In this document: positions 10,435 through 42,088 of the stretch, in pieces
How positions within the stretch are numbered: the stretch's first letter is position 1
How the letters are laid out: every line of letters starts with the position of its first letter
NCBI GenBank assembly: GCA_034717495.1
Contig: JAYELL010000015.1
Span: forward strand, 1 to 51,690
Reading direction: 5' to 3'
DNA length: 51,690 nt
Origin: Chloroflexota bacterium
GTDB taxonomy: Bacteria; Chloroflexota; Anaerolineae; JAAEKA01
Notes under the pieces: model-generated
The model's input: the letters and a program-made list of their open reading frames with translations, nothing else
The model's database searches: none
Told to the model about the DNA's origin: nothing
Made by a program: the position numbers and the translations under genes

Positions 10435-10465
10435 CCCCTCTCATGGGCGAGAGGGGATTTTTTTT
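10435..10465 (+). terminator. Intrinsic terminator of the AMMECR1 gene
   Basis: A perfect 8-bp stem CCCCTCTC/GAGAGGGG (10435-10442 with 10449-10456), a 6-nt loop, then A and eight T residues (10458-10465). It begins 13 bp after the stop codon. Its T tract overlaps the -35 box of the following promoter. Confidence 0.9.
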
Positions 10466-10493
10466 GACAATTGATCTGGCGATATGTTATAAT
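10464..10493 (+). promoter_or_regulatory. Promoter of the GntR/UTRA regulator and sugar module A
   Basis: Consensus TTGACA (10464-10469) and TATAAT (10488-10493) with an 18-bp spacer. The start point would be near 10500, inside the palindrome at 10491-10504, which suggests autoregulation. Confidence 0.85.
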
Positions 10494-10504
10494 GTCATGA
10501 CATT
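10491..10504. promoter_or_regulatory. Palindromic operator candidate AATGTCATGACATT
   Basis: A perfect 14-bp palindrome overlaps the -10 box and the expected start site of the GntR gene that begins at 10533. The half-site ATGTCA/TGACAT recurs seven times at 12313-12375 and in a 15-bp palindrome at 15242-15256, both upstream of genes in the same run. Binding by this GntR protein is inferred from position and symmetry. Confidence 0.6.
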
Positions 10505-10532
10505 TGTTCTATCCCTGGAAAATCTCTCCACG

Positions 10533-11270: not shown

Positions 11271-11327
11271 ATGCCCTGTCAGAAAAGCATGAGGAGCCGG
11301 GGGAGCAGGCAAGGAGATACTCACCAT

Positions 11328-12305: not shown

Positions 12306-12312
12306 TACCAAG

Positions 12313-12375
12313 ATGTCAGCATGTCAAGATGACATAATGACATCGTGACATGCTGGCATAATGACATGCTGACAT
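12313..12375. repeat. Array of TGACAT/ATGTCA half-sites upstream of the kinase
   Basis: The motif occurs as ATGTCA at 12313 and 12321 and as TGACAT at 12330, 12338, 12346, 12362 and 12370. Several are 8 bp apart, and the pair 12321-12335 forms an inverted repeat with a 3-bp spacer. The array fills the gap between the isomerase stop and the kinase ATG and leaves no visible ribosome binding site. It is either a clustered operator for the module's GntR protein, whose promoter carries the same half-sites, or another minisatellite. Confidence 0.6.
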
Positions 12376-12379
12376 AACT

Positions 12380-13378: not shown

Positions 13379-13419
13379 TGGCAAGTTGTTTCATGCAACA
13401 ATGATCGATGAGGAATTCT

Positions 13420-23716: not shown

Positions 23717-23737
23717 CGGCTGAAGGTTTCCCACACA

Positions 23738-23772
23738 AAGGCTGGCCCAGTCGCTTGGGCCGGGCCAGCCTT
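23738..23772 (+). promoter_or_regulatory. Intercistronic stem-loop between binding protein and permease genes
   Basis: AAGGCTGGCCC (23738-23748) pairs fully with GGGCCAGCCTT (23762-23772) around a 13-nt loop. No T tract follows. In the family, such structures after the binding protein gene protect the upstream mRNA or attenuate downstream transcription, giving excess binding protein. That role is inferred. Confidence 0.7.
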
Positions 23773-23812
23773 CTGGCCGACATTTCATACTCCCCGACAA
23801 GGAACCTCAATC

Positions 23813-24772
23813 ATGAGCGTAGCCCAAACGCAAACCGGCACGCCCCAGGTGCAACAGGAACGGCGGCGACGAGGTCTCAGCGACCGGGCCATCATCAGCC
23901 TGTTTATCTGGCCGACTTTGATCCTGCTGATTGCGTGGAACGTTTTCCCTCTCTTTTACAGTCTGTTTCTCTCTTTTACCGATTATTCCGCCATCTCACG
24001 CCAGGCGCCAACCTGGGTCGGCGTACAGAACTACATCGATATTCTCTCCAGCGACCGGCTTTGGGGTTATTTCTCCACCACTGGACGCTATACCGTTGTG
24101 GCTGTCGGTTTTGAGACCATTCTCGGCTTCACGCTGGCCATGCTGATCAAGGAAAAATTCAGGGGGAGCGGTCTGATCACTACCCTTATCCTGATTCCGA
24201 TGATGCTTTCACCCGTGGTGGTGGGGCTGTTCTGGAAGCTGATGTACAATCCAACCTTTGGCTATTTCAACTACCTGCTTGGCTTCACAGACCCCACCAG
24301 GGCTCCAGACATGCTGGCGGGTCGGTTTGCCAATCAGCCAGTGCCCGACCTGGCCTTATGGTCAGTGGTGCTGGTGGATATCTGGATGTGGACGCCATTT
24401 CTCATGCTGCTGTCGCTGTCGGGGCTAAAGGCGATTCCGGAATACCTCTACGAAGCTGCTGTGATCGACCGGGCCAGCTCGTGGTTCCAATTTTGGCGCA
24501 TAACACTTCCCCAGGTAATGCCGCTGTTGCTTATCGGTGTCCTATTCCGTACCATCGACGCCCTCAAGTCCTTTGATCTGGTCATGGGCATGACCAGCGG
24601 CGGACCTGGGGATCAAACTGAGTTGATTGCCGTCAATCTCTATCGCCAGGCGTTTCTCGGCCAGTTCCGGACCGGTGATGCCAGTGCTTTGGCCTATATC
24701 ATCCTGATTATCATCATTTCCGTCAGCAATCTATTGATCCGGGCGATCAACCAGGGCAACACAGAGGGTTAA
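23813..24772 (+). CDS. ABC sugar transporter, permease 1 (MalF/UgpA type)
   Basis: This 319-aa inner-membrane protein has six predicted helices. The first is near residues 22-45, after a basic cytoplasmic N-terminus (QERRRRGLSDRA). The EAA loop that docks to the ATPase reads EYLYEAAVIDRASSWFQFWRITLPQVMP. Other family words are TWVGVQNYIDIL and TSGGPGDQTELIAVNLYRQAF. AAGGAA precedes the ATG. The stop is followed after 4 bp by the second permease gene, so the two are one translational block. Confidence 0.92.
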   Translation: MSVAQTQTGTPQVQQERRRRGLSDRAIISLFIWPTLILLIAWNVFPLFYSLFLSFTDYSAISRQAPTWVGVQNYIDILSSDRLWGYFSTTGRYTVVAVGFETILGFTLAMLIKEKFRGSGLITTLILIPMMLSPVVVGLFWKLMYNPTFGYFNYLLGFTDPTRAPDMLAGRFANQPVPDLALWSVVLVDIWMWTPFLMLLSLSGLKAIPEYLYEAAVIDRASSWFQFWRITLPQVMPLLLIGVLFRTIDALKSFDLVMGMTSGGPGDQTELIAVNLYRQAFLGQFRTGDASALAYIILIIIISVSNLLIRAINQGNTEG

Positions 24773-24776
24773 GGCC

Positions 24777-25781
24777 ATGTCAGATTTTTATGAAAGCGGA
24801 CCGGATTACGAGGTTACAGAGTCAATTCGGGTGGACAAGGTCAGTCCAAGCGCGCGCCGGCGAGGTCGTCTGCGAGCTCTGATTGTGCTGATTATCGCCA
24901 TCATCATGTTGATCCCAATTTTTGTCATGATGATGACCGCCTTCAAGACCCGGGCCGAGGTCGTTTCAGTGCCGCCCAAGGTCTTCTTCGAGCCATCGCT
25001 GGAGGGCTTTGTCTTCCTGTTGACAGAGCGGGCGGTGGTCCCGCCAAATCGCATCGAGGAGTTTGAGCGCGCGGCAGCAGAGGGTAACCTGACCATGTTC
25101 GAGCAGGTTGCCTTCGACAGCGGCCAGGAGATCACTGGGCCGAGCGACTATATCAGGCGTCTGATGAACTCGGTGATCATTGCCGGGTTATCGACTTTGA
25201 TATCGGTGGTATTGGGGTTTTTCGCAGCCTACGCGTTCAGCCGGTTCACCATACCTGGAGAGAACGATATTCTTTTCTTCATCCTGAGTACCCGTATGCT
25301 GCCGGCCGTGGTGGTCACGATTCCCTTGTTTCTGATGTACCGGCAGCTTGGCCTGCACGATACTCACATCGGTATGATCCTGCTTTACACGGTTTTCAAC
25401 CTGTCCTTCTCGGTCTGGCTGCTGAAAGGTTTTATCGACGAGATTCCCAGGGAATATGAGGAGGCAGCTTTGGTGGATGGCTATACCAGGATGCAGACCG
25501 TGTTCAAGATCGTTTTGCCCCAGGCCATGACCGGCATCGCAGCCACCACCGTTTTCTGTCTGATCTTTGCCTGGAACGAGTATGCCTTCGCCCTGATGCT
25601 CACCAGCAACACCGCTCGCACGGCGCCACCGAGTATCGCGACCATGTTGGGTCGCGGCGGCATCGAGTGGTCTGCCATCGCGGCCGGCAGCCTTGGCTTT
25701 TTGATCCCTGTGGTCATTGTCGTTTTTCTGCTTCGCGACTACCTGGTGCGCGGAGTTACCTTCGGCGCCGTACGCAAATGA
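24777..25781 (+). CDS. ABC sugar transporter, permease 2 (MalG type)
   Basis: This is the 334-aa partner permease. It has six predicted helices, beginning with one at about 35-55. The EAA loop is EIPREYEEAALVDGYTRMQTVFKIVLPQAMTG. Between helix 1 and the core domain there is a charged insertion of about 35 residues (ERAVVPPNRIEEFERAAAEGNLTMFEQVAF) that enlarges the first external loop beyond the usual MalG size and may touch the binding protein. SD AAGG precedes the ATG at 24777. It forms the membrane channel with the previous gene product. Confidence 0.92.
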   Translation: MSDFYESGPDYEVTESIRVDKVSPSARRRGRLRALIVLIIAIIMLIPIFVMMMTAFKTRAEVVSVPPKVFFEPSLEGFVFLLTERAVVPPNRIEEFERAAAEGNLTMFEQVAFDSGQEITGPSDYIRRLMNSVIIAGLSTLISVVLGFFAAYAFSRFTIPGENDILFFILSTRMLPAVVVTIPLFLMYRQLGLHDTHIGMILLYTVFNLSFSVWLLKGFIDEIPREYEEAALVDGYTRMQTVFKIVLPQAMTGIAATTVFCLIFAWNEYAFALMLTSNTARTAPPSIATMLGRGGIEWSAIAAGSLGFLIPVVIVVFLLRDYLVRGVTFGAVRK

Positions 25782-25818
25782 CGGGCTGGGTTGCTCATAT
25801 CATCCAGGAAATGAACCA

Positions 25819-26904
25819 ATGGCAACAATAGAACTTCAAGATGTAGAGAAGAAATTCGGCGACAATCACGCCGTGAAACCGATGAACCTGACCATCAATG
25901 ATGGCGAGTTTGTTGTGCTACTGGGCCCTTCGGGCTGCGGAAAGACTACCACGCTTCGTATGATCTCAGGGCTGGAGGCGGTCACCGGCGGCACGATTCT
26001 GCTGGACGACGAAAACGTGACGTGGCATCACCCCAGCGACCGGGACATGGCTTTCGTCTTCCAGCTTTACGGCCTGTATCCCCACATGACCGCACGCGAG
26101 AACATTGCGTTCCCGTTGAAAGCCGAGCGCCTGCCCCGAGACGAAATCGAGAAGCGCGTCTCTGAGGTTGTTGATCTCCTGCATATTGAACACCTGCTTC
26201 GGATGAAGCCTGGCAAGCTGAGTGGCGGCGACCAGCAGCGTGTCGCCCTGGCTCGCGCGCTGGTGCGCCGCCCGGCGGCTTTTCTGATGGATGAGCCGCT
26301 GGGTGCCCTCGATGCGGATTTCCGGGAGAGCATGCGCGCCGAGATCAAACAGCTTCACATCGACCAGAACGCCACCACAGTTTATGTTACCCACGATCAG
26401 ATCGAGGCGATGGCCATGGGCGATCGCATCGTCGTCATGTCCGACGCCGAGATTCAGCAGGTCGGGACTCCGGCAGAGGTTTATTTCGATCCCTCAAGCC
26501 TGTTCGTCGCCCGTTTCATCGGCAGCCCCGGTATGAATCTGGTGACCGGACACTTCGCCGAAGGCGTTGTCGATCTGGGCAACCACAATCGTTTTTCCGT
26601 GCCTGCCGGGTGGCACCGTGATCTGGTGCGCGAGTTGGGAGGTGAAGGAAATGTCATCCTGGGTTTCCGTCCGGAAGCTGCGATCATTTCCGACGACGGG
26701 TCGTTGGTCGGCGATGTATACGCCAGCGACCTGATGGGCGCATTCACCATGCTGCATGTCAACATGAACGAGGAAGACATCGTTCACCTGAGGTCAGATC
26801 GCTCCAGGTTGTTCCCTACCGGTACGACGGTACGGTACGATGTGGATCCAGGGATGGTGCGTTTCTTTAACCCTGACACCGAAGAAGCGATCGTTCGGAG
26901 GTAG
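25819..26904 (+). CDS. ABC sugar transporter, ATPase 1 (MalK/UgpC type)
   Basis: The 361-aa ATP-hydrolysing subunit lies on the cytoplasmic face. Walker A is GPSGCGKTT, the Q-loop VFQLYGLYPHM, the signature LSGGDQQRVALARALVRR, Walker B FLMDEPLGALDA and the H-loop YVTHDQIEAM. A C-terminal OB-like regulatory domain follows (GFRPEAAI...). All catalytic motifs are intact. The signature has Asp where many have Gln. The start is ATG 25819 (MATIELQDVEKKFG); 34 upstream codons in frame overlap the permease gene and lack family sequence. A second, different ATPase follows after 4 bp, so the transporter probably uses a heterodimer. Confidence 0.93.
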   Translation: MATIELQDVEKKFGDNHAVKPMNLTINDGEFVVLLGPSGCGKTTTLRMISGLEAVTGGTILLDDENVTWHHPSDRDMAFVFQLYGLYPHMTARENIAFPLKAERLPRDEIEKRVSEVVDLLHIEHLLRMKPGKLSGGDQQRVALARALVRRPAAFLMDEPLGALDADFRESMRAEIKQLHIDQNATTVYVTHDQIEAMAMGDRIVVMSDAEIQQVGTPAEVYFDPSSLFVARFIGSPGMNLVTGHFAEGVVDLGNHNRFSVPAGWHRDLVRELGGEGNVILGFRPEAAIISDDGSLVGDVYASDLMGAFTMLHVNMNEEDIVHLRSDRSRLFPTGTTVRYDVDPGMVRFFNPDTEEAIVRR

Positions 26905-26908
26905 GGCC

Positions 26909-27964
26909 ATGACCAATGTCAAGCTGCAAAACATGGTAAAAACGTTCTCCCGTGTGACTGCCTTGAACGATGTTTCCTTCGACGTCAGGGACGGTGAGTT
27001 TTTTGTACTGCTCGGCCCGACTGGCGCCGGCAAGACCACCACGCTTCGGGTGATTGCCGGGTTGGAGGACCTGGATTCGGGCGACATCTTTTTCGACGGT
27101 GAGTCGATCGCCGGGTATACCCCTGCGGATCGCGATGTTGCTTTTGTGTTTCAGCAGTACTCACTCTATCCAACGATGACGGTCTACGATAACCTGGCGT
27201 TTCCACTGAAGGCACCTGTTCGAAAGTTTAGCAAGCAGGAAATTTATCAGCGGGTTACCGATGTGGCCGAGATGTTGCGAATCTCCCACCTGCTGGACCG
27301 AAAAACGGCCAAGCTCTCCGGTGGTGAAATGCAGCGAGTGTCCATCGGGCGGGCTATCGTACGTCAACCGCGGATTTTCCTGATGGACGAGCCCCTTTCC
27401 AATCTGGACGCCAAACTACGCGAGGCGCTGCGTGTCGAGCTTCAACACCTGCAGAAGACCCAGAACAGCACGACTCTGTTTGTAACCCATGACCAGATCG
27501 AAGCGCTGACGATGGCCGATCGCATCGGAGTTCTAAACCTGGGCGAATTGGTCCAGGTCGGATCACCTGAGGACATTTACGACCGGCCGGCGACTACTTT
27601 CGTGGCACAACTGGTGGGCACTCCCCGGATCAATCTCGTGAGCGCAACGCGCAGCAATGGCAGGTTGCAGGTGAAGGACTCTGATCTGGACCTGGCCGTG
27701 CCACCATTGGATCTCCCGCAGGAATTCCTGCTGGGTGTGCGGCCTGAGGATGTCAAGATTGCTCCAGCAGCCAAGTTTACGGGCGAGATTGTGCTTTCCG
27801 AACCCTTGGGTGTGGAGACCATTCTGCACATACGTACCGGTGAAATGACTATTCTGAGCCTGATTCCCGGTATCACCGATGCAAGAATCGGTGACCAGGT
27901 CCGCTTCGACTTTGCCAGGGAACGCCTGCATTTCTTTGACGAAGAGGGCAAACGGATTCAGTAA
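26909..27964 (+). CDS. ABC sugar transporter, ATPase 2 (MalK/UgpC type)
   Basis: The 351-aa second ATPase has Walker A GPTGAGKTT, Q-loop VFQQYSLYPTM, signature LSGGEMQRVSIGRAIVRQ, Walker B FLMDEPLSNLDA and H-loop FVTHDQIEAL. The C-terminal regulatory domain contains GVRPEDVKIAP. All catalytic residues are present in both ATPases, so neither is a degenerate site. GGAGG precedes ATG 26909. It closes the transport operon and is followed after 20 bp by a TIM-barrel isomerase, so transport and metabolism are probably cotranscribed. Confidence 0.93.
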   Translation: MTNVKLQNMVKTFSRVTALNDVSFDVRDGEFFVLLGPTGAGKTTTLRVIAGLEDLDSGDIFFDGESIAGYTPADRDVAFVFQQYSLYPTMTVYDNLAFPLKAPVRKFSKQEIYQRVTDVAEMLRISHLLDRKTAKLSGGEMQRVSIGRAIVRQPRIFLMDEPLSNLDAKLREALRVELQHLQKTQNSTTLFVTHDQIEALTMADRIGVLNLGELVQVGSPEDIYDRPATTFVAQLVGTPRINLVSATRSNGRLQVKDSDLDLAVPPLDLPQEFLLGVRPEDVKIAPAAKFTGEIVLSEPLGVETILHIRTGEMTILSLIPGITDARIGDQVRFDFARERLHFFDEEGKRIQ

Positions 27965-28833: not shown

Positions 28834-28906
28834 GCAACCATGGGGCGTGACGCCTGAAACGTGTTGCGAACCTCTACGATAAAATACTTTGCAAGGAGCA
28901 ACTATC

Positions 28907-29953
28907 ATGGGACGACCGGTTACACTATTCACCGGCCAGTGGGCAGATCTAACCTTTGATACGATCTGCGAGAAGGCCAAATCCTTTGGCTACGATGGCG
29001 TCGAGATCGCATGCTGGGGCGACCACTTCGAGGTCGACAAAGCGCTGGAAGATGACGCCTACCTGCAATCGCGCCGGGATATTCTTGACAAGCATGGCTT
29101 GCAGTGTTTTGCCATCAGCAATCACCTCGCCGGCCAGGCGGTGTGCGATCGAATAGATGAACGCCATGAGAGTATTCTGCCACCGCGGATATGGGGCGAC
29201 GGCTCGCAAGATGGCGTGCGCTCCCGCGCCGCCGAAGAGATGAAGAATACTGCCCGCGCCGCGGCAAAGTTTGGCGTGGACGTGGTGCCAGGCTTCACCG
29301 GGTCACCCATCTGGCACATGGTTTATTCCTTCCCTCCCAATCCCCCCGATTTTCTGGAGAAGGGCCTGACTCTCTTCGCCGAGCTGTGGACACCCATCCT
29401 GGATGTGTTCAAGGAGCAGGGTGTGAAGTTTGCCCTCGAGGTACATCCAACCGAGATTGCCTTCGACATCGCCAGCGCCGAGAGCGCCATCGAGGCCCTC
29501 GATGGACACAGTGCGTTTGGCTTCAACTACGACCCGAGCCACTTCGGCTATCAAGGCGTGGATTATGTTGGATTCATTCGCAAGTTTGCCTCCCGCGTCT
29601 TCCACGTGCACATGAAGGACGTGTACTGGTCTTCGGGTCCCATGGAAGCTGGCGTTTTTGGTGGCCACCTCAACTTCGGTGACCCGAGGCGCTTCTGGGA
29701 CTTCCGCTCCGTCGGTCGGGGCTCGATCGTTTTCGAGGATGTCATTCGCGCCTTGAACGATATTGGCTACGATGGACCTCTCTCGGTGGAATGGGAGGAT
29801 GCCAGGATGGACCGCGAGCATGGCGCCACCGAGTCGGCCGCCTTCGTGCGCAATCTGGACTTTGAACCGGCGGCTGTGGCGTTCGATGCTGCTTTTGCAT
29901 CCGACTCTGAGTCTGACCTGATCAGCCCGCAGGAATACGTGGAACGACGATAA
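28907..29953 (+). CDS. Sugar phosphate isomerase/epimerase TIM barrel (TIM 4)
   Basis: This 348-aa protein pairs with TIM 2 at 20104-21066. Both share E-x-H-P ([13 protein letters not shown]), N-x-D-P-S-H ([13 protein letters not shown]), HVHMKDVYW, the W-D-F-R-S-V-G-R-G word and a closing [11 protein letters not shown]. The Glu, Asp, His and Glu of these words are the probable divalent-metal ligands. AAGGAG at 28893-28898 sets the start at ATG 28907 ([15 protein letters not shown]). A 73-bp gap separates it from TIM 3. It precedes a Gfo/Idh/MocA dehydrogenase, a pairing often seen in inositol- or oxidised-sugar catabolism. Substrate unknown. Confidence 0.78.
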
Positions 29954-31758: not shown

Positions 31759-33270
31759 ATGATGTCAGCAAAGAACCTCTTTCTGGGACTCGATGTGTCG
31801 ACCACCGGTGCCAAGGCACTGCTGGTTGATGAATCGGGACATGTTATTGGCAGCGCGACCAACCTCTTGTCGTTGTCGACCCCCAGGCCCCTCTGGTCCG
31901 AACAGGACCCGGAAGACTGGTGGGTCGGAATGGCTGCCAGTATTCGCGAGGTACTGCAGGACAACCAGGTGACAGGCTCATCTGTCGCTGCGATCGGCCT
32001 GACCGGCCAGATGCATGGCCTGGTCATGCTCGACGGTGGAGGCCAGGTACTTCGTCCAGCCATTCTATGGAATGACCAGCGAACTGGTCCCCAGTGCGAT
32101 GAAATCCGCCGGCGGATCGGCAGGCGGCGTCTCATCCGGATCACCGGCAATGACGCGCTACCGGGATTCACAGCACCCAAGATTCTCTGGGTCCAGCAGA
32201 ATGAGCCTGACCTGTATGCCAGGACCAGGCACATTCTACTGCCGAAGGACTATATCCGGTTTCGGCTTACCGGCCAGTTTGCTGTTGATCGGGCTGGTGG
32301 TGCCGGAACCATTCTGTTCGATTTGAAGGACCGCACCTGGTCTGATGAAATGACAGAGGCGCTGGAGATTCCGGCGGCATGGCTGCCGCCGACCTTCGAA
32401 GGATCCGAGGTATCTGGTGTGGTCACGGCAGTTGTTGCTGCCGAGACGGGCCTGGCCGAGGGCACACCGGTTGTGGGTGGCGGTGGCGATCAGGCGGCGC
32501 AGGCTGTTGGCGTTGGTGCCGTCAAACCTGGCATCGTCGCATTGACTCTTGGAACATCGGGAGTTGTTTTCGCCTCGACGCCGGCGCCACTGATCGAGCC
32601 TGAGGGAAGGTTGCATGCCTTTTGTCATGCCGTTCCGGGAGCCTGGCATTTCATGGGTGTGATGCTCAGTGCCGCGGGGAGTCTGCAATGGTATCGTGAC
32701 CAGTTGGCCCGTGAGATGAGCTTTCCAGACTTGCTTGCCGAGGCGACCGAGGTGCCGCCGGGCAGTGAGGGCCTGTTCTTCCTTCCCTACCTGACTGGCG
32801 AGCGCACGCCCTATCCTGATCCGCTGGCCCGGGGGGCATGGGTCGGCTTGACCCTGCGCCACCACCGCGCTCATTTGACCAGAGCCGTGCTGGAAGGTGT
32901 CGCCTTCGGTATCAAGGACAGTTTCACCTTGATCCAGGAGGCCGGCCTGGGAGAAGTCGAACAGGTTCGCATTTCCGGCGGCGGCGCTCGCAGCCCTGTC
33001 TGGCGGCAGATCATGGCCGACGTGCTTGGTGTTGAGTTGGTAACGGTAAACACCGCCGAGGGCGCAGCCTTCGGCGCGGCGCTGCTGGCGGCTGTGGGTG
33101 CGGGAGCTTTTGCTGACGTGCCCTCGGCCTGCGAAAAGACCATACAGATCACCGGCAGCAGCAAACCTGGCGCCGACAGTTGGACCTACCAGCGCTACTA
33201 TCCACACTACCGGGCGCTCTACCCTGCTCTTTCCAATGAGTTCACCGCTATCGCCGAACTGGTCGAATAA
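31759..33270 (+). CDS. xylB: Xylulokinase (FGGY family)
   Basis: The 503-aa cytosolic kinase phosphorylates D-xylulose or a close ketose. The N-terminal phosphate loop is GLDVSTTGAKALLVDE. The xylulokinase-typical words GLTGQMHGLVMLD and ILWNDQRT follow. GGGGDQAAQAVGVGAVKPG contains the catalytic Asp, and the C-terminal adenine-binding block is ISGGGARSPVWRQIMADVLGVELV...EGAAFGAALLAA. The length is normal. Two ATGs are adjacent (31759 and 31762); GAGG lies ahead. The next gene is a xylose-isomerase homologue 13 bp downstream, so the pair resembles a xylAB unit. Relatives in FGGY accept ribulose or apulose, so the sugar is not certain. Confidence 0.9.
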   Translation: MMSAKNLFLGLDVSTTGAKALLVDESGHVIGSATNLLSLSTPRPLWSEQDPEDWWVGMAASIREVLQDNQVTGSSVAAIGLTGQMHGLVMLDGGGQVLRPAILWNDQRTGPQCDEIRRRIGRRRLIRITGNDALPGFTAPKILWVQQNEPDLYARTRHILLPKDYIRFRLTGQFAVDRAGGAGTILFDLKDRTWSDEMTEALEIPAAWLPPTFEGSEVSGVVTAVVAAETGLAEGTPVVGGGGDQAAQAVGVGAVKPGIVALTLGTSGVVFASTPAPLIEPEGRLHAFCHAVPGAWHFMGVMLSAAGSLQWYRDQLAREMSFPDLLAEATEVPPGSEGLFFLPYLTGERTPYPDPLARGAWVGLTLRHHRAHLTRAVLEGVAFGIKDSFTLIQEAGLGEVEQVRISGGGARSPVWRQIMADVLGVELVTVNTAEGAAFGAALLAAVGAGAFADVPSACEKTIQITGSSKPGADSWTYQRYYPHYRALYPALSNEFTAIAELVE

Positions 33271-33283
33271 TCTGGAGTGAGGT

Positions 33284-34333
33284 ATGGAGGATCTAATGGA
33301 CAAGTATGGCTATCGGTTTTCATTCGGCCCATGGAACATCCACGAGGGCGCCGACCCCTTTGGTCCACCGGTGAGGCCAGGCGTGGATTTCGACGAAAAG
33401 CTGGCGATTCTCAAGGAATTGGGATTCGACGGGATGCAGTTCCACGATGATGACGCCGTGCCTGACCTGGATAATCTGACCGCGCTGGAAATTCGCCAAC
33501 AGGGTGAGGCCATGAAGGCCAGGCTCGATGACCTGGATTTGGTGGCGGAGTTTGTGGCGCCCAGGCTGTGGGAACATCCAATGACCGTCGATGGCGGGTT
33601 CACGGCAAATGATCCGCGTGCCCGGGCGTATGCCATCGAACGAGCCATAAAATGCGCGGACATCTGTCGATATCTGGGAACGGACCTGATGGTTCTCTGG
33701 CTGGCCCGGGAGGGCACCTATTTACGCGAAGCCAAGGACGCGGTGCGGGCAACCCACCTGTTGGTGGAGGCGATCAATGCCCTGCTCGACCATGATCCTG
33801 ATCTTAGAATTGTCATCGAACCCAAACCCAATGAGCCCATGGATCTGGCCTATATTCCGACTATTGGCCACGCTCTGGCGCTGGGTTTCATGGCCAGCGA
33901 CCCATCCCGGGTGGGTGCGCTGGTCGAATCTGCCCACGCGGTGCTGGCCGGGCTCGATCCAGCCGATGAAATGAGTTTCGCCCTGGCCTTTGACAAGCTA
34001 TGGAGTGTCCACCTCAACGATCAAAACGGTTTGAAGTTCGATCAGGATCGGTCCTTTGGATCGGTGGACCTGCGCAGGGCCTTCAACCAGGTAAGGGTGT
34101 TGGAGGAGAATCGGTTCTTCGACGTGGGCATGGTGGGTCTCGATGTCAAGGCACTACGTACGCAGCCGCCTGATCTGGCGACCAAACACCTGAGCAACAG
34201 CTTGAAAACCTTCTTGCGCCTGGTCGAGATTGTGCGCAGGTTGGATCAGGAGAAGATGGACGAACTGATCGTTGCCCGCGACTACGAAGAACTGGACTGG
34301 TTGGTCCTGTCTGCATTGATGGGCAATGGATAG
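33284..34333 (+). CDS. Xylose isomerase homologue with altered metal site (TIM 5)
   Basis: This 349-aa protein clearly matches the xylose isomerase family: YRFSFGPWNIHEGADPFGPPVRP, FHDDDAVP with catalytic His54, WEHPMTVDGGFTANDPRARAYAI, and IEPKPNEPMDLAYIPTIGHALAL with Glu179 and Lys181. E215-x-x-H218 and KFDQD (Asp253, Asp255) are also kept. In the family block HIDLNGQNG, the Asp metal ligand is His243 here (SVHLNDQNG), and a new Asp246 lies three residues on. The protein is also about 40 residues shorter than usual. It may therefore isomerise another aldose. It is 13 bp behind xylB. A 24-bp-unit repeat element begins 16 bp after the stop. Confidence 0.82.
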   Translation: MEDLMDKYGYRFSFGPWNIHEGADPFGPPVRPGVDFDEKLAILKELGFDGMQFHDDDAVPDLDNLTALEIRQQGEAMKARLDDLDLVAEFVAPRLWEHPMTVDGGFTANDPRARAYAIERAIKCADICRYLGTDLMVLWLAREGTYLREAKDAVRATHLLVEAINALLDHDPDLRIVIEPKPNEPMDLAYIPTIGHALALGFMASDPSRVGALVESAHAVLAGLDPADEMSFALAFDKLWSVHLNDQNGLKFDQDRSFGSVDLRRAFNQVRVLEENRFFDVGMVGLDVKALRTQPPDLATKHLSNSLKTFLRLVEIVRRLDQEKMDELIVARDYEELDWLVLSALMGNG

Positions 34334-34690: not shown

Positions 34691-36130
34691 ATGAAACGAG
34701 CTCTTTTTCAATATGAGATGGTTCGCAGCGAGCTGGAGGAAATCGTCGGGGCACCTTTTGTCTCGGTGGATGAGAGCGATCGGTTGGTGTATTCGACCGA
34801 TTGGTCCTGGATGCCACAGATGTGGCTCGATCGGGGCGAACCGCTGCCAACCCCCGATTACATCGTTCATCCTGGTTCCCCCGGGGAAATCTCGGAGATT
34901 ATGGATATCGCCAATAAATACCGCATCCCGGTTGTGCCATGGGGTGGCGGTTCCGGTACCCAGGGGGGAGCTTTGCCGATATTCGGGGGAATCCTGCTGG
35001 ACACCAAACGACTGGACAAGATCATTGAGATCGATGAAAAATCGTTGACTGTCACCGCCCAGGCGGGCATCATCGGCCAGCAACTGGAGTGGGCATTGAA
35101 TGAAAAGGGTCTCTTTTTGGCCCACTATGCGGCCGCTTCCCGCTGCGCAACTCTGGGTGGCTATCTGGCGCCACGGGGCACAGGCACCATCAGCACCAAG
35201 TATGGCAAGGCGGAAGATCTGGTCCTGAGCATGGAGATCGTACTGCCGACAGGCGAGATCATTCGAACGCCCCAGGTGCCTCAACACGCTGCCGGACCGG
35301 ACTGGCCTCCTCTATTCCTCGGGGCAGAGGGCACTTTCGGCGTAATCACCGAGGCCACCATGCAGGTGGAGTACATTCCCGAGGCTCGCCTTTTGCGTGG
35401 TATTCTCTTCGATGATTTGAGTAAGGCTCTGGAGGCAGGACGGCGCATGATGACAAGGCGATTGCACCCCTTTGTCATTCGCCTGTACGATCCAGCCTCG
35501 ACTGCCAGCCGGATCAAAAAGATCCTCGGCTACGAGTACGACGGGGCATACATGGTATTGGGTTTCGACGGAGATCCCGATATCGCCGCGCTCGAAGAAC
35601 AGAAGGCACTGGAGATCTGCAAGGACCTGGACGGACGGGACCTGGGTCGTGAGCCGGGTGAGGCCTGGTGGGAACACCGCTATGACTTTTACTACCCACC
35701 GATCAATCTGAAGCTGCCGTGGATGTACGGAACCACCGAGACGATCACAACCTACGACAAGATCGAGGATCTTTACTGGGCGGAAAAGCGGGCGGTCGAA
35801 CAGGGTTTTTCCGACTGGAACGTCAGGTTTATCGGCCACTTTTCCCACTGGTTCCACTGGGGTGTGATGCTCTACTGCCGCTTCATCATAGAAGATCCTC
35901 CCGAGGATGCCCAGGAAGCGCTTCGTTTACACAACCGGGTGTGGAATGTGGCTATGCAGACAGTGATCGCCAACGGCGGTATGATCAATGAGCATCACGG
36001 GGTTGGCTTGAAATTGAGCAGATATATGCGCAAGCAGTATGGCGATGCCTGGCCCTTCCTGCAACGCATTAAGTCCACCATCGATCCCAACGGGATCATG
36101 AATCCCGGCAAGGTGGGCTTTGGCTTCTGA
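34691..36130 (+). CDS. FAD-dependent oxidase/dehydrogenase, GlcD/AGPS type
   Basis: The 479-aa flavoprotein is of the vanillyl-alcohol-oxidase fold. The FAD-binding PCMH domain spans about 45-225 (VVPWGGGSGTQGGALP, RCATLGGYLAPRGTGTISTKYGKAEDLV, LGAEGTFGVITEATM). The FAD-oxidase C-terminal domain ends in NGGMINEHHGVGLKLSRYM...IKSTIDPNGIMNPGKVG, with the conserved histidines. Substrates in the family are 2-hydroxy acids (glycolate, D-lactate) or alkyl-DHAP. AAGGAG precedes the ATG. The next gene encodes an Fe-S subunit, as in glycolate oxidase (GlcD plus GlcF), so oxidation of a 2-hydroxy acid with electron transfer to the respiratory chain is the best guess. Confidence 0.88.
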   Translation: MKRALFQYEMVRSELEEIVGAPFVSVDESDRLVYSTDWSWMPQMWLDRGEPLPTPDYIVHPGSPGEISEIMDIANKYRIPVVPWGGGSGTQGGALPIFGGILLDTKRLDKIIEIDEKSLTVTAQAGIIGQQLEWALNEKGLFLAHYAAASRCATLGGYLAPRGTGTISTKYGKAEDLVLSMEIVLPTGEIIRTPQVPQHAAGPDWPPLFLGAEGTFGVITEATMQVEYIPEARLLRGILFDDLSKALEAGRRMMTRRLHPFVIRLYDPASTASRIKKILGYEYDGAYMVLGFDGDPDIAALEEQKALEICKDLDGRDLGREPGEAWWEHRYDFYYPPINLKLPWMYGTTETITTYDKIEDLYWAEKRAVEQGFSDWNVRFIGHFSHWFHWGVMLYCRFIIEDPPEDAQEALRLHNRVWNVAMQTVIANGGMINEHHGVGLKLSRYMRKQYGDAWPFLQRIKSTIDPNGIMNPGKVGFGF

Positions 36131-36175
36131 TCTGGTCCGGACCGTTGTTCGTGTTTCGTATGTGAGGAACGTTGT

Positions 36176-37285
36176 ATGTCACCTGAGAACATTCTCCTGA
36201 CTGCCGACAATTGCAGATACTGCCTGATGTGTCGACATGTTTGCCCGGTCGCCCACGTTACCCGCCTGGAGACTCTCACTCCCCATGGATGGGGGTTGTT
36301 GATTTCCTCGGAGAGGCGGGGACTCATCTCGTGGAACGAGAGTTCCGTTGATCGGCTCTATTCCTGTGCCGACTGTGGTACCTGCCGCGCCCACTGTGTA
36401 ACCGATCAACCGTTGCCCTATGCTATCGCAGTAGCCCGAGCCCAGGTTGTCGATCAGCGGAAGGCGCCTGAGACAGCTTATGCCGTCGACGAATCCCTGC
36501 GCGCATGGGGCAATCCCTATCGGGAACAGCTCCCCGAGCCTGTTTCAGGCCTGGGAGATGTGGCGCTGTTCGTCGGGGATGATGCCTGCTGGCAACGACC
36601 CGATGTGCTGGACGCCGCGTTGCTGCTCTTGAAAGGGGTGGGGATAGAACCGGTGCTGGTGGGCGTGGGCCGAAACAGCGGCTATCTTGCCAGCTCGCTG
36701 GGATTTCCTGAAACGGCGCGCCAACTGGCGGCCGCCAACCTGGCTGACATCAGAGCCAGTGATGCTCATAAACTCCTGGTGCTGACGCCCGGCGATTACT
36801 ACGCCTTTTCTCAGCTATACGAGGAACGGCTGGGAATCGATTGGCCTCGCTCTGTGATCGTGGAGGAAGTGACGAATTTCCTGGCCGAGGAACTGGCCCT
36901 GGGACACCTGGCCTTTCGCAGATCCGCAGAATCCCCACCCTATGCCTACGTTGATCCGCCGCATTCGTTGCGCGTGCCCGACCGCCATGATGCGCCAAGA
37001 AAGCTGCTGACGGCCATCATGCCCGACAATCGGCGCGAACTGTTCTGGCGGCGGGACCGGGCACACCCGGTGGGCAGCAGTTCCCTTCAATATGTCCAAC
37101 CGGATATCGCGACCGACCTGACCTACGCCCGGCTTGGCGATGCCAATGCGGTCGGCGCCGAACTGATCATTACCGAGGACCCCGGCGCTTTACACGCCCT
37201 GGACACCCATGCAGCCCGCTTCCGCCTGCGGGCGCAGGGCCTTTACGAGTTGCTGGCTGCTCATCTTGGCTCAGAAACTGTTTGA
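36176..37285 (+). CDS. Iron-sulfur subunit, GlcF-like, with cysteine-less CCG domains
   Basis: The 369-aa protein has two intact 4Fe-4S motifs at the N-terminus: C13-x2-C16-x2-C19-x3-C23-P and C64-x2-C67-x2-C70-x3-C74. The remainder aligns by eye with two CCG domains of GlcF/HdrD-type proteins, but their cysteines are gone. The CCG word reads RNSG near 166-169, DPCH is DPPH (260-263), and CCGxGG is HPVGSSS (297-303). Only Cys138 remains in the whole C-terminal part. It likely passes electrons from the FAD subunit 45 bp upstream but cannot hold the usual non-cubane cluster. The stop codon lies within the left terminal repeat of the 37278-37406 element. Confidence 0.82.
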   Translation: MSPENILLTADNCRYCLMCRHVCPVAHVTRLETLTPHGWGLLISSERRGLISWNESSVDRLYSCADCGTCRAHCVTDQPLPYAIAVARAQVVDQRKAPETAYAVDESLRAWGNPYREQLPEPVSGLGDVALFVGDDACWQRPDVLDAALLLLKGVGIEPVLVGVGRNSGYLASSLGFPETARQLAAANLADIRASDAHKLLVLTPGDYYAFSQLYEERLGIDWPRSVIVEEVTNFLAEELALGHLAFRRSAESPPYAYVDPPHSLRVPDRHDAPRKLLTAIMPDNRRELFWRRDRAHPVGSSSLQYVQPDIATDLTYARLGDANAVGAELIITEDPGALHALDTHAARFRLRAQGLYELLAAHLGSETV

Positions 37286-37406
37286 AAGGCCTTGTCCATG
37301 GGCCTGTTGGGTCTTCAAGGTGTGCTTCGCGGCATCAGGCGGGTTTCCAGGCCTGAATTGCAGCTTTCGAGCGGCCTGGGGAGGCTTTCGACCCCTTTTC
37401 AAACAG
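37278..37406. mobile_element. 129-bp terminal-inverted-repeat element (MITE-like)
   Basis: CTGTTTGAAA (37278-37287) and TTTCAAACAG (37397-37406) are perfect 10-bp inverted termini. The interior has no gene. The left end supplies the TGA stop (37283-37285) of the Fe-S gene. No target-site duplication is evident. A long-range hairpin for RNA processing is the alternative reading. Confidence 0.5.
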
Positions 37407-37454
37407 CTACTGACAGACTCTTCAATTCGACGTAACTGAAACAGGAGGTATTCC

Positions 37455-38342
37455 ATGCATCTTTCAATGCACAACTGGATGAGGGCTGAGCCCCTCGAGG
37501 TCACCATACGACGGCTTGCCAGATATGGCTACGAAAGCATCGAGATTGGTGGCGAACCGGACAGGTATGACACGGCAGAGGTCCGCAAGCTGCTCAAGGA
37601 CAACGGCCTGCGCTGCTGGGGTTCAATCAGCTTGATGTTCGCCGGCCTGGACCTGTTGCAGGCCGATGCTCAAGGCCGGGCCAATACAGTGCAGTATCTC
37701 AAGGACTGCATCACCATGGTCAAGGAACTGGACGGGGAGCTCATGTCCATCGTGCCCTCCGAGGTCGGCAAGGTCAATGCCCAGGCCGATCCTGAGACCG
37801 AGTGGAATTGGGCCGTCGAGGGCTTGCGGGAAGTGAACGCCCATGCCAAAAAGGAAGGGGTTCGTATCGCCGTCGAGGCGCTCAACCGCTTTGAAACCAA
37901 CTTCATCAACCGTCACGATCAGGCGGTCCTGCTTGCGACGGAAGTGGGTGACAACTGCGGCGTATGTCTGGATTCCTTCCATATGAACATGGAAGAGGCC
38001 AACTTCCGCCAGGCGCTTCTCGATACAGGCGATTTGATCTGGGACTATCACGTGGCGGACAACAATCGCATGGCGTGCGGCATGGGTGCGCTCAACTGGC
38101 GGGACATCGTCGGCACCCTGAAGGAAATCGGCTACGATGGCGCTCTGACTGTCGAATTCGTGGCGCCATTGGATCGTACGCCTGCCAACCCGTACAAGAA
38201 CGCTACCGCTGCGGCCGAGTCGGAGTTGACCGAAGAACAGCTCAAGTTCATCGAGGACCATGGCAGTGGTGTCCTGTCGGAAGAATTCTACAGCTGGTTG
38301 GTGGAAGAGACGGCCAAGACACTGTTGCCTCTGATCAAGTAG
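37455..38342 (+). CDS. Ketose 3-epimerase-like TIM barrel (TIM 6)
   Basis: The 295-aa protein is of the D-tagatose 3-epimerase/hydroxypyruvate-isomerase-like fold. The probable ligands are Glu in VEALNRFETNFIN, Asp in CLDSFHMNMEE, His in DYHVADNNRMACGMGALNW and Glu in LTVEFVAP. It shares these words with TIM 3 (27985-28833), and with its longer C-terminus (EDHGSGVLSEEFYSWLVEETAKTLLPL) it is the larger of the two. AGGAGG lies just before the ATG. It stands between the Fe-S gene and the UPF0261 gene and is the sixth such barrel in the window. Substrate unknown. Confidence 0.8.
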   Translation: MHLSMHNWMRAEPLEVTIRRLARYGYESIEIGGEPDRYDTAEVRKLLKDNGLRCWGSISLMFAGLDLLQADAQGRANTVQYLKDCITMVKELDGELMSIVPSEVGKVNAQADPETEWNWAVEGLREVNAHAKKEGVRIAVEALNRFETNFINRHDQAVLLATEVGDNCGVCLDSFHMNMEEANFRQALLDTGDLIWDYHVADNNRMACGMGALNWRDIVGTLKEIGYDGALTVEFVAPLDRTPANPYKNATAAAESELTEEQLKFIEDHGSGVLSEEFYSWLVEETAKTLLPLIK

Positions 38343-38446
38343 TTGGCAGCCGCAAACACTGACTGAAACCGTCTTCCGACCATCTCGGGGACAGCTTCCA
38401 ACTGAAGTGGTAGGGTAAAATTGCATTTTGTCCAGGAAAGCTGCCG

Positions 38447-38465
38447 GGCAAGATGCAATCTTGCC
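38447..38465. promoter_or_regulatory. Perfect 19-bp inverted repeat upstream of the UPF0261 gene
   Basis: GGCAAGAT (38447-38454), spacer GCA, ATCTTGCC (38458-38465). No T tract follows, so an operator or leader hairpin is more likely than a terminator. It is 65 bp before the ATG of the UPF0261 gene, in a 187-bp gap with no other signal. Confidence 0.45.
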
Positions 38466-38529
38466 GTACAGTTAGTCCAGGCAAGGTGGCAAGAGCCCGG
38501 TTCTGGCTTGTCCGGGTTAGGGGTTGTCT

Positions 38530-39780
38530 ATGGGAAAAAACGTAGTAATCATCGGCACGCTGGATACAAAGGGACCGGAGATTGCTTACCTGCGGGACAG
38601 GATGCAGGATTTAGGCCTTTCCACGACTGTCATCGACTCAGGCATTCTTGGTGAACCGCTGGATATCATCCCGGATATCAGCCGCGCCGAGGCCGCGACT
38701 TACGGAGAGACGAACATCGACGCACTGCGCAACGCCGGTAGCCGGGGCAAAGCGGTTGAGGGAATGCGCGGGGCCCTCAAGGTGCTGGCCCGGGAGTTGT
38801 ATCGAGAGGGCAAGTTAAATGCCATCGTCAGCATGGGAGGTGCCGAAGGAGCCGTAATGGGTGCCGCAGCCATGATGGGTTTGCCGGTCGGGGTTCCCAA
38901 GGTGCTTGTGTCTCCCATCGCATCCGGAAAACACTACTTCGACCCGCTGGTTGGTACCAGTGACATCATGGTCGTTCACTCCATCGTGGACATCCTGGGA
39001 CTGAATCCGATTGCCACGACGGTGTTTGACAACGTGGCGGCGGCAGTTGCCGGGATGGTCGGGCATGGCCACGAGCTGTCGAAGCCGGGCGACGAGGACC
39101 GTTTTGTGGCAGTGACCATGCTGGGCAACACGACTCTTGCCGGCATGGCGATGAAGGAACGGCTCGCGGACCATGGCTATGAAGCGGTGATCTTCCACTC
39201 CAATGGGGTGGGTGGACCGGCCATGGAGGAATTGGCGGAAGCCGGTCAGTTTGTGGGGGTCATCGATCTTACCACCAACGAGACCTATGATCCCATGACC
39301 GGTGGCATCCACGATGGGGGCCCGGACCGGTTGAAGAGAGTCGGTCTGCTGGGTTTGCCCCAGGTAGTTGTGCCTGGCTGTATCGATTTCTCTGTTTTCC
39401 ATGCCGATGCCATCCCTCCCGAGCTGCAGGGCCGGCCCGTGTATGACCACAACCCTGAATACACCCTGGTGCGCGCCAGCCAGGAGGAGATGATGGCTCT
39501 TGGTGAACTCTTCGCCGAGCGACTGAACCTGGCAACCGGTCCAGTAATCGTCGCGGTGCCCACGCAGGGCTTATCGATTCCAAATGTGCCGGATGGACCC
39601 TTCTGGGATCCAGAGGCGGACCAGGCGTTTCTGAACACGCTAAAAGCATCCATTCGCGACGATATTCCCGTTCTCAGTTACGAGCGCCATGTCAACGACC
39701 CATCATTTGGTGTTGCGATGGCAGACCTCTTTGCAGATATGATGGCGTCCAAGGGCGCCAAGGAGTCCGAAAATGATTGA
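38530..39780 (+). CDS. UPF0261 / Tm-1-like ATP-binding domain protein
   Basis: The 416-aa protein belongs to the UPF0261 family, which is related to the N-terminal half of the plant Tm-1 resistance protein. Family words are IIGTLDTKGPEIAYLRD, DSGILGEP, IVSMGGAEGAVMGAAAMMGLPVGVPKVLVSPIASG and SDIMVVHSIVDILGLN. The Gly-rich GGAEG segment and the D-T-K start fit nucleotide binding. Biochemical function in bacteria is not settled; it often sits beside sugar-acid or oxalocrotonate-like genes. ATG 38530 is preferred over a TTG two codons upstream. Its last 8 bp overlap the creatininase-family gene, so the two are coupled. Confidence 0.85.
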   Translation: MGKNVVIIGTLDTKGPEIAYLRDRMQDLGLSTTVIDSGILGEPLDIIPDISRAEAATYGETNIDALRNAGSRGKAVEGMRGALKVLARELYREGKLNAIVSMGGAEGAVMGAAAMMGLPVGVPKVLVSPIASGKHYFDPLVGTSDIMVVHSIVDILGLNPIATTVFDNVAAAVAGMVGHGHELSKPGDEDRFVAVTMLGNTTLAGMAMKERLADHGYEAVIFHSNGVGGPAMEELAEAGQFVGVIDLTTNETYDPMTGGIHDGGPDRLKRVGLLGLPQVVVPGCIDFSVFHADAIPPELQGRPVYDHNPEYTLVRASQEEMMALGELFAERLNLATGPVIVAVPTQGLSIPNVPDGPFWDPEADQAFLNTLKASIRDDIPVLSYERHVNDPSFGVAMADLFADMMASKGAKESEND

Positions 39781-40702
39781 CGATCATAATTCGCAGAAAT
39801 ACCGCGACGTTCCCCATTTTACCGAGGGTGACCAGGACTTCCGCTCGAATTTCCTTTCATGGGATTTGGGCGACCTCTGTATCACCGATATCGAGACCTA
39901 TCTGGAGACCAAGGATACAATTTTGGTACCCATGGCGAGCCTGGAGCAGCATGGGCCCCATCTTCCCCTTTACACCGACACGGTGACGGCCTGGGAGATA
40001 TCCAAGCGTGTCTCGGAGATGATTGCCGTGCTGCACACGCCCCCGATCTGGACCGGTTATTCCCCTCAGCATATGCACAAACCGGGCCATGGACGCGGCA
40101 CGATTACACTGCGAAGTAGCACTTTGCTCAATCTGGTGCATGACGTGGCTCGAAGTTTGATCCACCATGGTTTCAACCGCATTATCTTCATCAACGGCCA
40201 TGGCTCCAATGTCAAGGTGATCGACCCGATCCTGCGAAAATTGAGGTACGACACCGGAGCGTTGATCAGTTTCGTCAAACCCTATATGGAAAACTATGTG
40301 GGGATACTCGATGGACTGATGGAGAATCCCTGGGATGAGACACCGGGCTGGCATGCCAGCGAGTTGGAAACCGCGCAGGACCTGGCCTGGAACGAGGGAT
40401 TGGTCAGGATGGACCGGGCCGCCTTCACTCGGGCTCACGTTCCGGAGTTCCTTCCCAGGTCCTTTGAAAAGAAGGATGGTATGCCCGATGTGGAATTCGA
40501 GGACTACAAGTATTTCACCTTTCCAATGGATCACCATGAATTCATCGAAAGTGGCGTGATCGGCAATCCCTTGCGTGCTACCAGGGAAAAGGGTGAGGAG
40601 TCCTTCCGGCGCCTGTCGGAACACGTAGCTCGTGGAGTCCTTGAACTGATGGAAGTGCCTGTCGAAGTCCATGACCGGGAATTCGTGGATAGGGTTTTCT
40701 AG
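39773..40702 (+). CDS. Creatininase-family amidohydrolase/lactonase
   Basis: This 309-aa cytosolic metallohydrolase is of the creatininase superfamily. Ligand words are LEQHGPHLPLYTDT (Glu, His, Asp), FINGHGSNVKVI (His) and GWHASELETA (Glu, and a His of the active site). These proteins hydrolyse creatinine-type cyclic amides or related lactam/lactone rings; several bacterial members serve formamidopyrimidine or other substrates. In this cluster, ring opening of a sugar lactone would fit, but this is only an inference. It starts within the UPF0261 gene (8-bp overlap) and ends 93 bp before the LarA gene. Confidence 0.85.
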   Translation: MIDDHNSQKYRDVPHFTEGDQDFRSNFLSWDLGDLCITDIETYLETKDTILVPMASLEQHGPHLPLYTDTVTAWEISKRVSEMIAVLHTPPIWTGYSPQHMHKPGHGRGTITLRSSTLLNLVHDVARSLIHHGFNRIIFINGHGSNVKVIDPILRKLRYDTGALISFVKPYMENYVGILDGLMENPWDETPGWHASELETAQDLAWNEGLVRMDRAAFTRAHVPEFLPRSFEKKDGMPDVEFEDYKYFTFPMDHHEFIESGVIGNPLRATREKGEESFRRLSEHVARGVLELMEVPVEVHDREFVDRVF

Positions 40703-40795
40703 GATGATGTTTTTAATCCACCCCCCCGCCCCGTGGGCAGCCCCCAGAGCGGCAGCGAAGGGCTTCCTACCTGGGAGAGGGGAGAGGAGAATGAC

Positions 40796-42088
40796 ATGCA
40801 GGTAAGATTGGCGTACGGTCGAGATGGGCTGAAGGTGACTTTGCCCGATGGGTGTGACATTATCAAGCCCAGGGCTACTTTGGGATTGCCCGACGAGCAG
40901 GCGGCATTGGTCGCAGCCCTGCGCGAACCGATCGATTCGCCGCCGCTGGCGGAGCTAGTCCAGCCGGGGGATAGAGTCGTCATCGTGCATACCGACATCA
41001 CCAGGGCGACTCCAAACGACCGGATCCTGCCGCCGGTCCTCGCCGAGCTTGAAGGGGCGGGAATCAGACGCGAGGAGATAACCCTGTTGAACGGTCTTGG
41101 TACCCACCGTCCCCAGACCGAGGCCGAGCTGCGGGCCATGTTAGGCGACTCAATCGTTGACAACTATCGTTGTCTGCAACATGATTGCTTCGATGACGCC
41201 AGTCTTGTTTCGCTGGGTACCACACAGCTGGGCCATCCGGTGCGCATCAACAGGGACTATCTGGCGGCCGATTTCAAGATATTGACCGGTTTCATCGAGC
41301 CCCACTTCTTCGCGGGCTTCAGCGGCGGCCCCAAGGCGATATTGCCATCCCTGGCCGGCACTGAAAGTGTCTTCTCCAACCACAGCGTCTCCATGGTTGC
41401 CGATCCCCGGGCTACCTGGGGTGTGATCGAGGGCAATCCCATCTGGCAGGAGATGCGGGAAGTGGCGTTGCGCACTGAGCCCGGTTTTTTGCTCAACGTG
41501 ACGCTCAATGCCCGTCACGAAATCAGCGGTGTATTCGCGGGAGAGCTGCTGGCGGCTCATGCCGCGGGCTGTGACTTCGTGCGGGCAAGTGCCATGATTC
41601 CGGTGTCACAGCCCTACGATATCGTAATCACAACCAACAGTGGTTATCCCCTCGACCAGAATCTGTACCAATCGGTGAAGGGAATGAGGGCCGCTGCCGA
41701 GATCGTTCGAGAGGGTGGCAGCATCATCGTGGCTGCCGCCTGCGAGGATGGTGTGCCGGATCACGGCCAGTACGCTTCCTTGCTGGCGCAGGTCGATTCG
41801 CCTCAGCAAGCGCTGGACCTGATATCCCAGCCAGGATTCCTGGAACACGACCAATGGCAGGTACAGATACAGGCACATATCCAACTGAAGGCGGATGTTT
41901 ACGTTTACAGCCAGGGCCTCACTGACGACCAGATCGAAAACGCCCTGTTTTTATCCTGTCATGACATTGAGGAAACGGTCGATGCATTGCATCAACGCTA
42001 TGGGCCGAATGCCCGCATCGCTGTGCTGCCAGAGGGACCTCAAACGGTGCCCTATCTCGAAGATAACAGTTCAGATCATCGGATCTGA
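40796..42088 (+). CDS. larA: Nickel-dependent lactate racemase family protein (LarA)
   Basis: This 430-aa protein is a LarA homologue. VVIVHTDITRATPNDRILPPVL is the typical early block. TLLNGLGTHRPQTEAEL follows, and GFIEPHFFAGFSGGPKAILPSLAG contains the Lys that in LarA holds the nickel-pincer cofactor. LarA racemises D/L-lactate or, in relatives, malate and sugar acids. The cofactor makers LarB, LarC and LarE are not in the window, so they must lie elsewhere. GAGGAG precedes ATG 40796; the 21 codons upstream are GC-rich leader text without family match. The stop is followed 3 bp later by the TauE gene. Confidence 0.88.
   Translation: MQVRLAYGRDGLKVTLPDGCDIIKPRATLGLPDEQAALVAALREPIDSPPLAELVQPGDRVVIVHTDITRATPNDRILPPVLAELEGAGIRREEITLLNGLGTHRPQTEAELRAMLGDSIVDNYRCLQHDCFDDASLVSLGTTQLGHPVRINRDYLAADFKILTGFIEPHFFAGFSGGPKAILPSLAGTESVFSNHSVSMVADPRATWGVIEGNPIWQEMREVALRTEPGFLLNVTLNARHEISGVFAGELLAAHAAGCDFVRASAMIPVSQPYDIVITTNSGYPLDQNLYQSVKGMRAAAEIVREGGSIIVAAACEDGVPDHGQYASLLAQVDSPQQALDLISQPGFLEHDQWQVQIQAHIQLKADVYVYSQGLTDDQIENALFLSCHDIEETVDALHQRYGPNARIAVLPEGPQTVPYLEDNSSDHRI

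Follow-up and report, generated by a model that had tools for sequence, protein, structure and literature searches.

In this work, a single uninterrupted frame of 349 codons at 33284-34333 (+ strand) was studied in a 51,690-nucleotide stretch of DNA from a Chloroflexota bacterium (contig JAYELL010000015.1), the whole of which is called the window below. Its product is a member of the xylose isomerase-like TIM barrels (PF01261) and carries a histidine, His243, where xylose isomerase (XylA) has a metal-binding aspartate. The protein is probably a working sugar isomerase, as predicted from its fold and conserved residues. On balance, we favour the view that it converts an aldose to a ketose with two bound metals, that it represents a third XylA clade with His243 as a working ligand, and that its substrate is most likely an aldose other than, or besides, D-xylose. 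The gene and the codons that bear on this view are given below, where fractions of 81 refer to the window protein together with the best 80 of at least 573 confirmed relatives.

33284..34333, + strand: predicted isomerase of 349 residues, from the His243 subfamily within the XylA family (open frame, PF01261, TIGR02631, AlphaFold2 model)
33443..33445, + strand: codon of His54, equivalent of the ring-opening His (81/81)
33557..33574, + strand: codons Ala92-Pro93-Arg94-Leu95-Trp96-Glu97, the changed strand; class I XylA has Thr-Thr-Asn-Leu-Phe, then mostly Thr or Ser
33818..33826, + strand: codons Glu179 (metal 1 ligand) to Lys181 (equivalent of the catalytic Lys), aligned to E181/K183 (81/81)
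33926..33937, + strand: codons Glu215 (bridging ligand) to His218 (metal 2 ligand), both 81/81
34010..34012, + strand: codon of His243, aligned to the metal 1 ligand Asp245 of Streptomyces XylA in three alignments
34019..34021, + strand: codon of Asp246, a position likewise occupied by Asp in class I XylA of Chloroflexota (14/14 rows)
34040..34048, + strand: codons Asp253 to Asp255 (metal 2 ligands), both 81/81
34142..34144, + strand: codon of Asp287 (metal 1 ligand), 81/81

The match of the protein to PF01261 (77.4 bits, E 1.8e-21) passes the Pfam gathering score of 31.1. Class I xylose (glucose) isomerase, to which the XylA of Streptomyces rubiginosus belongs, is its closest family, although the score for TIGR02631 (199.6 bits) lies far under the curated cut-off of 447. 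The scores for class II XylA (TIGR02630, 68.5 bits, cut-off 533.25) and for the rhamnose isomerase family RhaI (TIGR02635, 27.6 bits, cut-off 531.35) are also below their curated cut-offs. An AlphaFold2 model, built from an alignment of 79 sequences from which L016 and L035 were left out, has a mean pLDDT of 87.3 and a pTM of 0.89. Its best VIA-align 2 match is glucose isomerase 6irk (Z 40.3, 2.2 A over 341 residues), and rows 1-48 of the 50 matches listed are all class I enzymes with near-tied scores (Z 38.4-40.3). L-rhamnose isomerases are absent among these 50 matches, which has no bearing on relatedness. The Streptomyces enzymes that top the structural alignment share 35-36% identity with the protein, and 14 class I XylA rows from Chloroflexota share 32.5-35.4%. 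A sequence-only reading of this DNA had called the protein short, and this is so because 39 residues of the C-terminal arm are absent relative to a full class I XylA (L094). The shortening is local, since this arm deletion, after residue 333, is the main internal gap.

Published work on Streptomyces XylA assigns Glu181, Glu217, Asp245, and Asp287 to metal 1, and Glu217, His220, Asp255, and Asp257 to metal 2 (PMC8070043, PMC11194214). Three alignments pair His243 with Asp245, namely a phmmer match to the Streptomyces enzyme, an hhalign comparison with six XylAs from Chloroflexota, and a joint MAFFT alignment, and this agreement excludes a frame or alignment slip. The replacement of the family Asp proposed by the sequence-only reading is thus borne out, and none of the three alignments places a conserved Asp of the protein at this position. 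Moreover, His243 is invariant in the window protein and the best 80 of at least 573 relatives (81/81), so it is a real subfamily marker; a chance substitution or an assembly or sequencing error as its source is excluded by this conservation. The relatives came from a scan with six search patterns, none of which contains residue 243; at least 589 stretches matched and 573 were confirmed, and the confirmed ones may include ordinary XylA. His54, Lys181, Glu215, His218, Asp253, and Asp255, which had been listed as kept, are all present in the same 81 of 81 sequences. Asp287, the remaining metal 1 ligand, is likewise retained, which means that one ligand type has been exchanged and none lost. With Glu179, Asp57, and Phe26, these residues are shared with class I XylA along with the fold. 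The ligand itself sets the protein apart from class I XylA, where Asp was found in 14 of 14 rows. On the other hand, Asp246 had been described as newly appearing, and this does not hold. Asp stands at this position in all 14 Chloroflexota class I XylAs, eight of them from genomes that also carry the subfamily, in the motif HIDLNDQ; the Asn-Asp-Gln after the ligand position is a likeness between the protein and Chloroflexota XylA. It is Gly in the four Streptomyces-type chains of the phmmer alignment that Asp246 is aligned with, and its own count of 81/81 in the window protein and the best 80 of at least 573 relatives is partly ascertained because one of the six patterns covers this residue.

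A histidine at this ligand position is a rhamnose-isomerase-type feature that is common in the wider family. In the crystal structure of Lactobacillus rhamnosus L-rhamnose isomerase (L-RhI), the structural metal is bound by Glu228, Asp261, His288, and Asp328 (PMC10908623), and the His metal 1 ligand (His288) as well as the arrangement of Lys230, His264, and Asp296/Asp298 resemble the site seen here. By hhalign, His243 of the subfamily falls in one column with the Asp of XylA and the His of RhaI (E values of 1.4e-11 between the subfamily and RhaI and of 2.8e-10 between XylA and RhaI). PMC11194214 reports that a few rhamnose isomerases were likewise retrieved when the metal motif of XylA served as the query. 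Of 19 RhaI loci from the phylum of the window, 16 have His as the aligned ligand and three have Asp. The three with Asp (L099, L111, L114) all pass the cut-off of the family and cluster in the tree, a natural exchange in the reverse direction. Since both residues occur within RhaI, the Asp-to-His swap alone predicts no new substrate. The step from a changed ligand to a different substrate, as the sequence-only reading had put it, consequently fails as a standalone argument; the statement that the protein is not simply a xylose isomerase has partial support from the separate clade, the frequently shared cluster with XylA, and invariant changes in residues aligned to the sugar side of XylA. According to published work, metal 1 of XylA is contacted by O2 and O4 of xylitol, and metal 1 of L-RhI is bound by O2 and O3 of L-rhamnose and D-allulose (PMC10908623). 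It is a speculation of ours that His243 may accompany the O2/O3 binding mode of L-RhI.

By comparing the sugar side of the pocket, further differences from XylA were observed. Three residues of one strand differ between XylA and the subfamily: T90 is Ala92, N92 is Arg94, and F94 is Trp96. Thr90 and Phe94 line the sugar site of XylA. Arg94 is present in 26 of 26 subfamily rows of the MAFFT alignment, and in 81 of 81 sequences when the window protein and the best 80 of at least 573 relatives are counted; in its place, Asn stands in every row of class I (14/14), class II (4/4), and RhaI (9/9). The Gly-Gly that follows the active-site Trp in class I XylA is Leu140-Ala141 here, and mostly Leu (76/81) and Ala (80/81) in the window protein and the best 80 of at least 573 relatives. 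In this respect the subfamily is like RhaI, whose rows have Leu (6/9) and then Ala (7/9) after the Trp. The strand Ala92-Glu97 may be more telling than His243.

The subfamily forms a widespread, conserved, and apparently uncharacterised third clade of the XylA family. A quick tree without bootstrap was calculated from 54 proteins, namely 26 of the 81 subfamily sequences, 14 class I XylAs, four class II XylAs, nine of the 19 RhaI proteins, and a second XylA-like protein of the window. The 26 subfamily rows lie on one side of a branch with an SH-aLRT of 97; the corresponding values are 94 for class I and 99 for the nine RhaI rows. The order of these groups is unsettled because long branches meet in the tree. 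Membership in RhaI itself was considered and excluded by the TIGR02635 score (27.6 bits against 531.35) and by the separate branches; the protein is 16.0-22.2% identical to the nine RhaI rows, it has Glu215 where all nine have Asp, and its His54-Asp57 region fails to align with them. Class II XylA shares the two-metal TIM barrel and, where aligned, the same catalytic set, but it has Asp as the ligand in 4/4 rows and its profile spans 435 positions. Going by record titles, the best 80 relatives are from Chloroflexota, Planctomycetota, Kiritimatiellota, Lentisphaerota, Verrucomicrobiota, Armatimonadota, Bacteroidota, Paenibacillus, and a few others. A search of plasmids returned 20 records, all below 60% identity and none of the subfamily; the 15 listed are 32-38% identical, and the labelled ones are named xylose isomerase. 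In the open-access literature, which includes few subscription journals, no paper was found that deals with the subfamily, with an exchange of this ligand, with a third class, or with the pocket residues.

We hypothesize that the enzyme works as follows. Metal 1 would be held by Glu179, Glu215, His243, and Asp287, and metal 2 by Glu215, His218, Asp253, and Asp255. The sugar ring would be opened by His54, O1 would be held by Lys181, and the metals would drive the hydride shift from one to the other of C1 and C2 that XylA and L-rhamnose isomerase also use. In this scheme, His243 would be a functional ligand of the rhamnose-isomerase kind and not the mark of a broken site. In Chloroflexota, the ketose product would most likely be passed on to the neighbouring xylulokinase XylB.

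The isomerase gene lies within a run of sugar genes on the + strand of the window:

22325-27964, + strand: ABC importer
starts at 27985 and 37455, + strand: AP_endonuc_2 or related proteins
28889..29953, + strand: AP_endonuc_2 TIM-barrel protein, IolE-like; 52-55% identical proteins in L040, L041, L054, and L065
29968..31161, + strand: Gfo/Idh/MocA oxidoreductase, levoglucosan-dehydrogenase-like (NF052479, 374.1 bits, below the cut-off of 650)
31759..33270, + strand: xylulokinase XylB, followed after 13 bases by the isomerase gene (TIGR01312, 576.4 bits, cut-off 380.25)
start at 34691, + strand: GlcD-like FAD protein
start at 36176, + strand: Fe-S protein
start at 38524, + strand: PRK02399-family protein
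start at 39773, + strand: creatininase-like protein
start at 40733, + strand: LarA

The intact xylulokinase gene reported next to the isomerase gene is confirmed by its TIGR01312 score, well above the cut-off. Many loci of Chloroflexota and two of Paenibacillus (L053, L076) have a close relative of the Gfo/Idh protein (49-82% identical) in the neighbourhood of the subfamily gene, and an IolE-like TIM barrel near the subfamily gene is also found in Lentisphaerota. Much of the set at 34691-42088 (the GlcD-like, Fe-S, AP_endonuc_2, PRK02399-family, creatininase-like, and LarA genes) recurs in L004, L011, L012, and L071. Among loci whose titles place them outside Chloroflexota, a XylB match was found in two of 43 within the fetched DNA, the length of which differs between loci, and the handover to XylB therefore cannot be general. 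Of 45 selected neighbours, 41 adjacent same-strand proteins from outside Chloroflexota were scanned (those upstream of L051, L061, L070, and L074 were left out); nine match Gfo/Idh and six AP_endonuc_2. The ORF caller applied to the loci is noisy and missed the known gene in 15 of the 80. The upstream neighbour of L061 is a FAD oxidoreductase by a separate scan. Glycoside hydrolases, a PIG-L deacetylase, and FAD oxidoreductases adjoin the gene in L050, L061, and other non-Chloroflexota loci, and an L-fucose isomerase does so in one locus. With neighbours so mixed outside Chloroflexota, the role of the subfamily may differ between phyla.

For 50 of the 80 loci, picked toward longer contigs, the genome was surveyed for co-occurrence with ordinary XylA; "not found" may here mean "not assembled". 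Class I XylA scored over its cut-off in 17 of these genomes and class II in another 13, together 30 of 50. Twelve of the 17 have the class I match on the same contig as the subfamily match, at a distance of 52-5025 bases between match ends, and XylB scores over its cut-off in all 12 pairs, between the two genes in eight and beside them in four. Within the fetched DNA, XylA was present in 14 of the 80 loci. XylB was over its cut-off in 36 of the 50 genomes. No canonical XylA over the cut-off was found in the other 20, and 15 of those carry XylB. The genome of the window, which is 95.64% complete, likewise has no canonical XylA match over the cut-off, and the xylulokinase model gives 18 match rows in it, three of them over the cut-off. 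This genome holds a rich set of FGGY sugar kinases, and some of the 18 rows are pieces of one gene. In L011, L012, and L014, XylA is located between the Gfo/Idh gene and xylB, a place where it is absent in the window. Of the surveyed genomes, 23 are Chloroflexota by record title, and class I XylA was found in 16 of these, against 22 of 147 drawn genomes of the phylum that lack the subfamily (Fisher p 1.7e-7, uncorrected for kinship and with the two sets sampled differently). The first count becomes 16/24 when L034 is included, which is titled Proteobacteria and is apparently the same genome as G003 of the phylum of the window. Among the 151 drawn genomes alone, four carry the subfamily and one of these has class I XylA, with no significant enrichment (p 0.49). 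We infer that the gene may have been a partner of XylA first and have become the sole isomerase later in some lineages.

The frequent position of the subfamily gene beside ordinary XylA makes an aldose other than, or besides, D-xylose the most likely substrate. A more specific form of this view, in which we place rather little confidence, is that the subfamily is a third, widespread class with a free aldose of its own, which would bind metal 1 via O2/O3 in the manner of L-rhamnose isomerase and contact the invariant Arg94 (possibly with a charged or branched group); next to xylA-xylB, the gene would have given a second entry to the same kinase. No canonical XylA was found in 20 of 50 genomes and in that of the window, and XylB is present in 15 of the 20, so xylose itself may be the substrate. 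The protein could in that case be the D-xylose isomerase of its genome, a divergent XylA serving XylB, in which the His would tune the metal preference or the pH optimum but leave the choice of substrate unaffected. The xylB gene 13 bases upstream, the lack of XylA in the interval from the Gfo/Idh gene to xylB, where L011, L012, and L014 carry it, and the His/Asp exchange inside the RhaI family are consistent with this. We nevertheless regard it as fairly unlikely, because 30 of 50 genomes retain a canonical XylA too, in 12 of them as a near neighbour, because class I XylA occurs in 16/23 Chloroflexota genomes with the subfamily against 22/147 without it (kinship uncorrected), and because the Asn of all 27 XylA and RhaI rows is Arg in 26/26 subfamily rows.

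Two further explanations concern the chemistry. The substrate could be a 3-keto-sugar intermediate of a levoglucosan-like pathway, handled with the linked Gfo/Idh protein and IolE-like barrels, and no simple aldose. PF01261 proteins are reported as eliminase and as hydrating enzyme of the levoglucosan pathway (PMC10066097), and the Gfo/Idh relatives near the gene in Chloroflexota, L053, and L076, the IolE-like barrel in Lentisphaerota, and the nine Gfo/Idh and six AP_endonuc_2 matches among 41 non-Chloroflexota neighbours point the same way. Yet the two-metal set with Lys181 and His54 is that of a hydride-shift isomerase, the Gfo/Idh protein at 374.1 bits is well below the levoglucosan dehydrogenase cut-off of 650, and the neighbours are very mixed, which makes this explanation distinctly improbable. 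A degenerate site that has lost isomerase activity could account for the exchange of one XylA ligand and for the C-terminal arm that is short by 39 residues. It is very hard to reconcile with ligands and catalytic residues kept in 81/81 sequences (the window protein and the best 80 of at least 573 relatives) from several phyla, and with an exchanged residue that is itself a reported ligand in L-RhI (PMC10908623); we give it hardly any weight.

Automatic annotation would probably name the subfamily proteins xylose isomerase. If the substrate is another one, members of Chloroflexota, Planctomycetota, Kiritimatiellota, Lentisphaerota, and other groups harbour a sugar-catabolic enzyme under a wrong name, and predictions from genomes with the subfamily overstate xylose use. 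The family also offers natural examples of an Asp-to-His change in a single ligand of an enzyme that has been much engineered for industry.

The second XylA-like protein of the window (11271-12305) also belongs to the AP_endonuc_2 family and has His as its ligand (HTHWNDN). It differs from the protein described here in an identity of 27.1%, in having no Asp55-x-Asp57 pair after the His, and in accompanying a PfkB kinase and a split transketolase. The region 10443-15218 encodes a GntR regulator, this protein, the PfkB kinase, and the transketolase in two genes. It looks like a separate isomerase-kinase-transketolase route of a kind similar to D-apiose catabolism.
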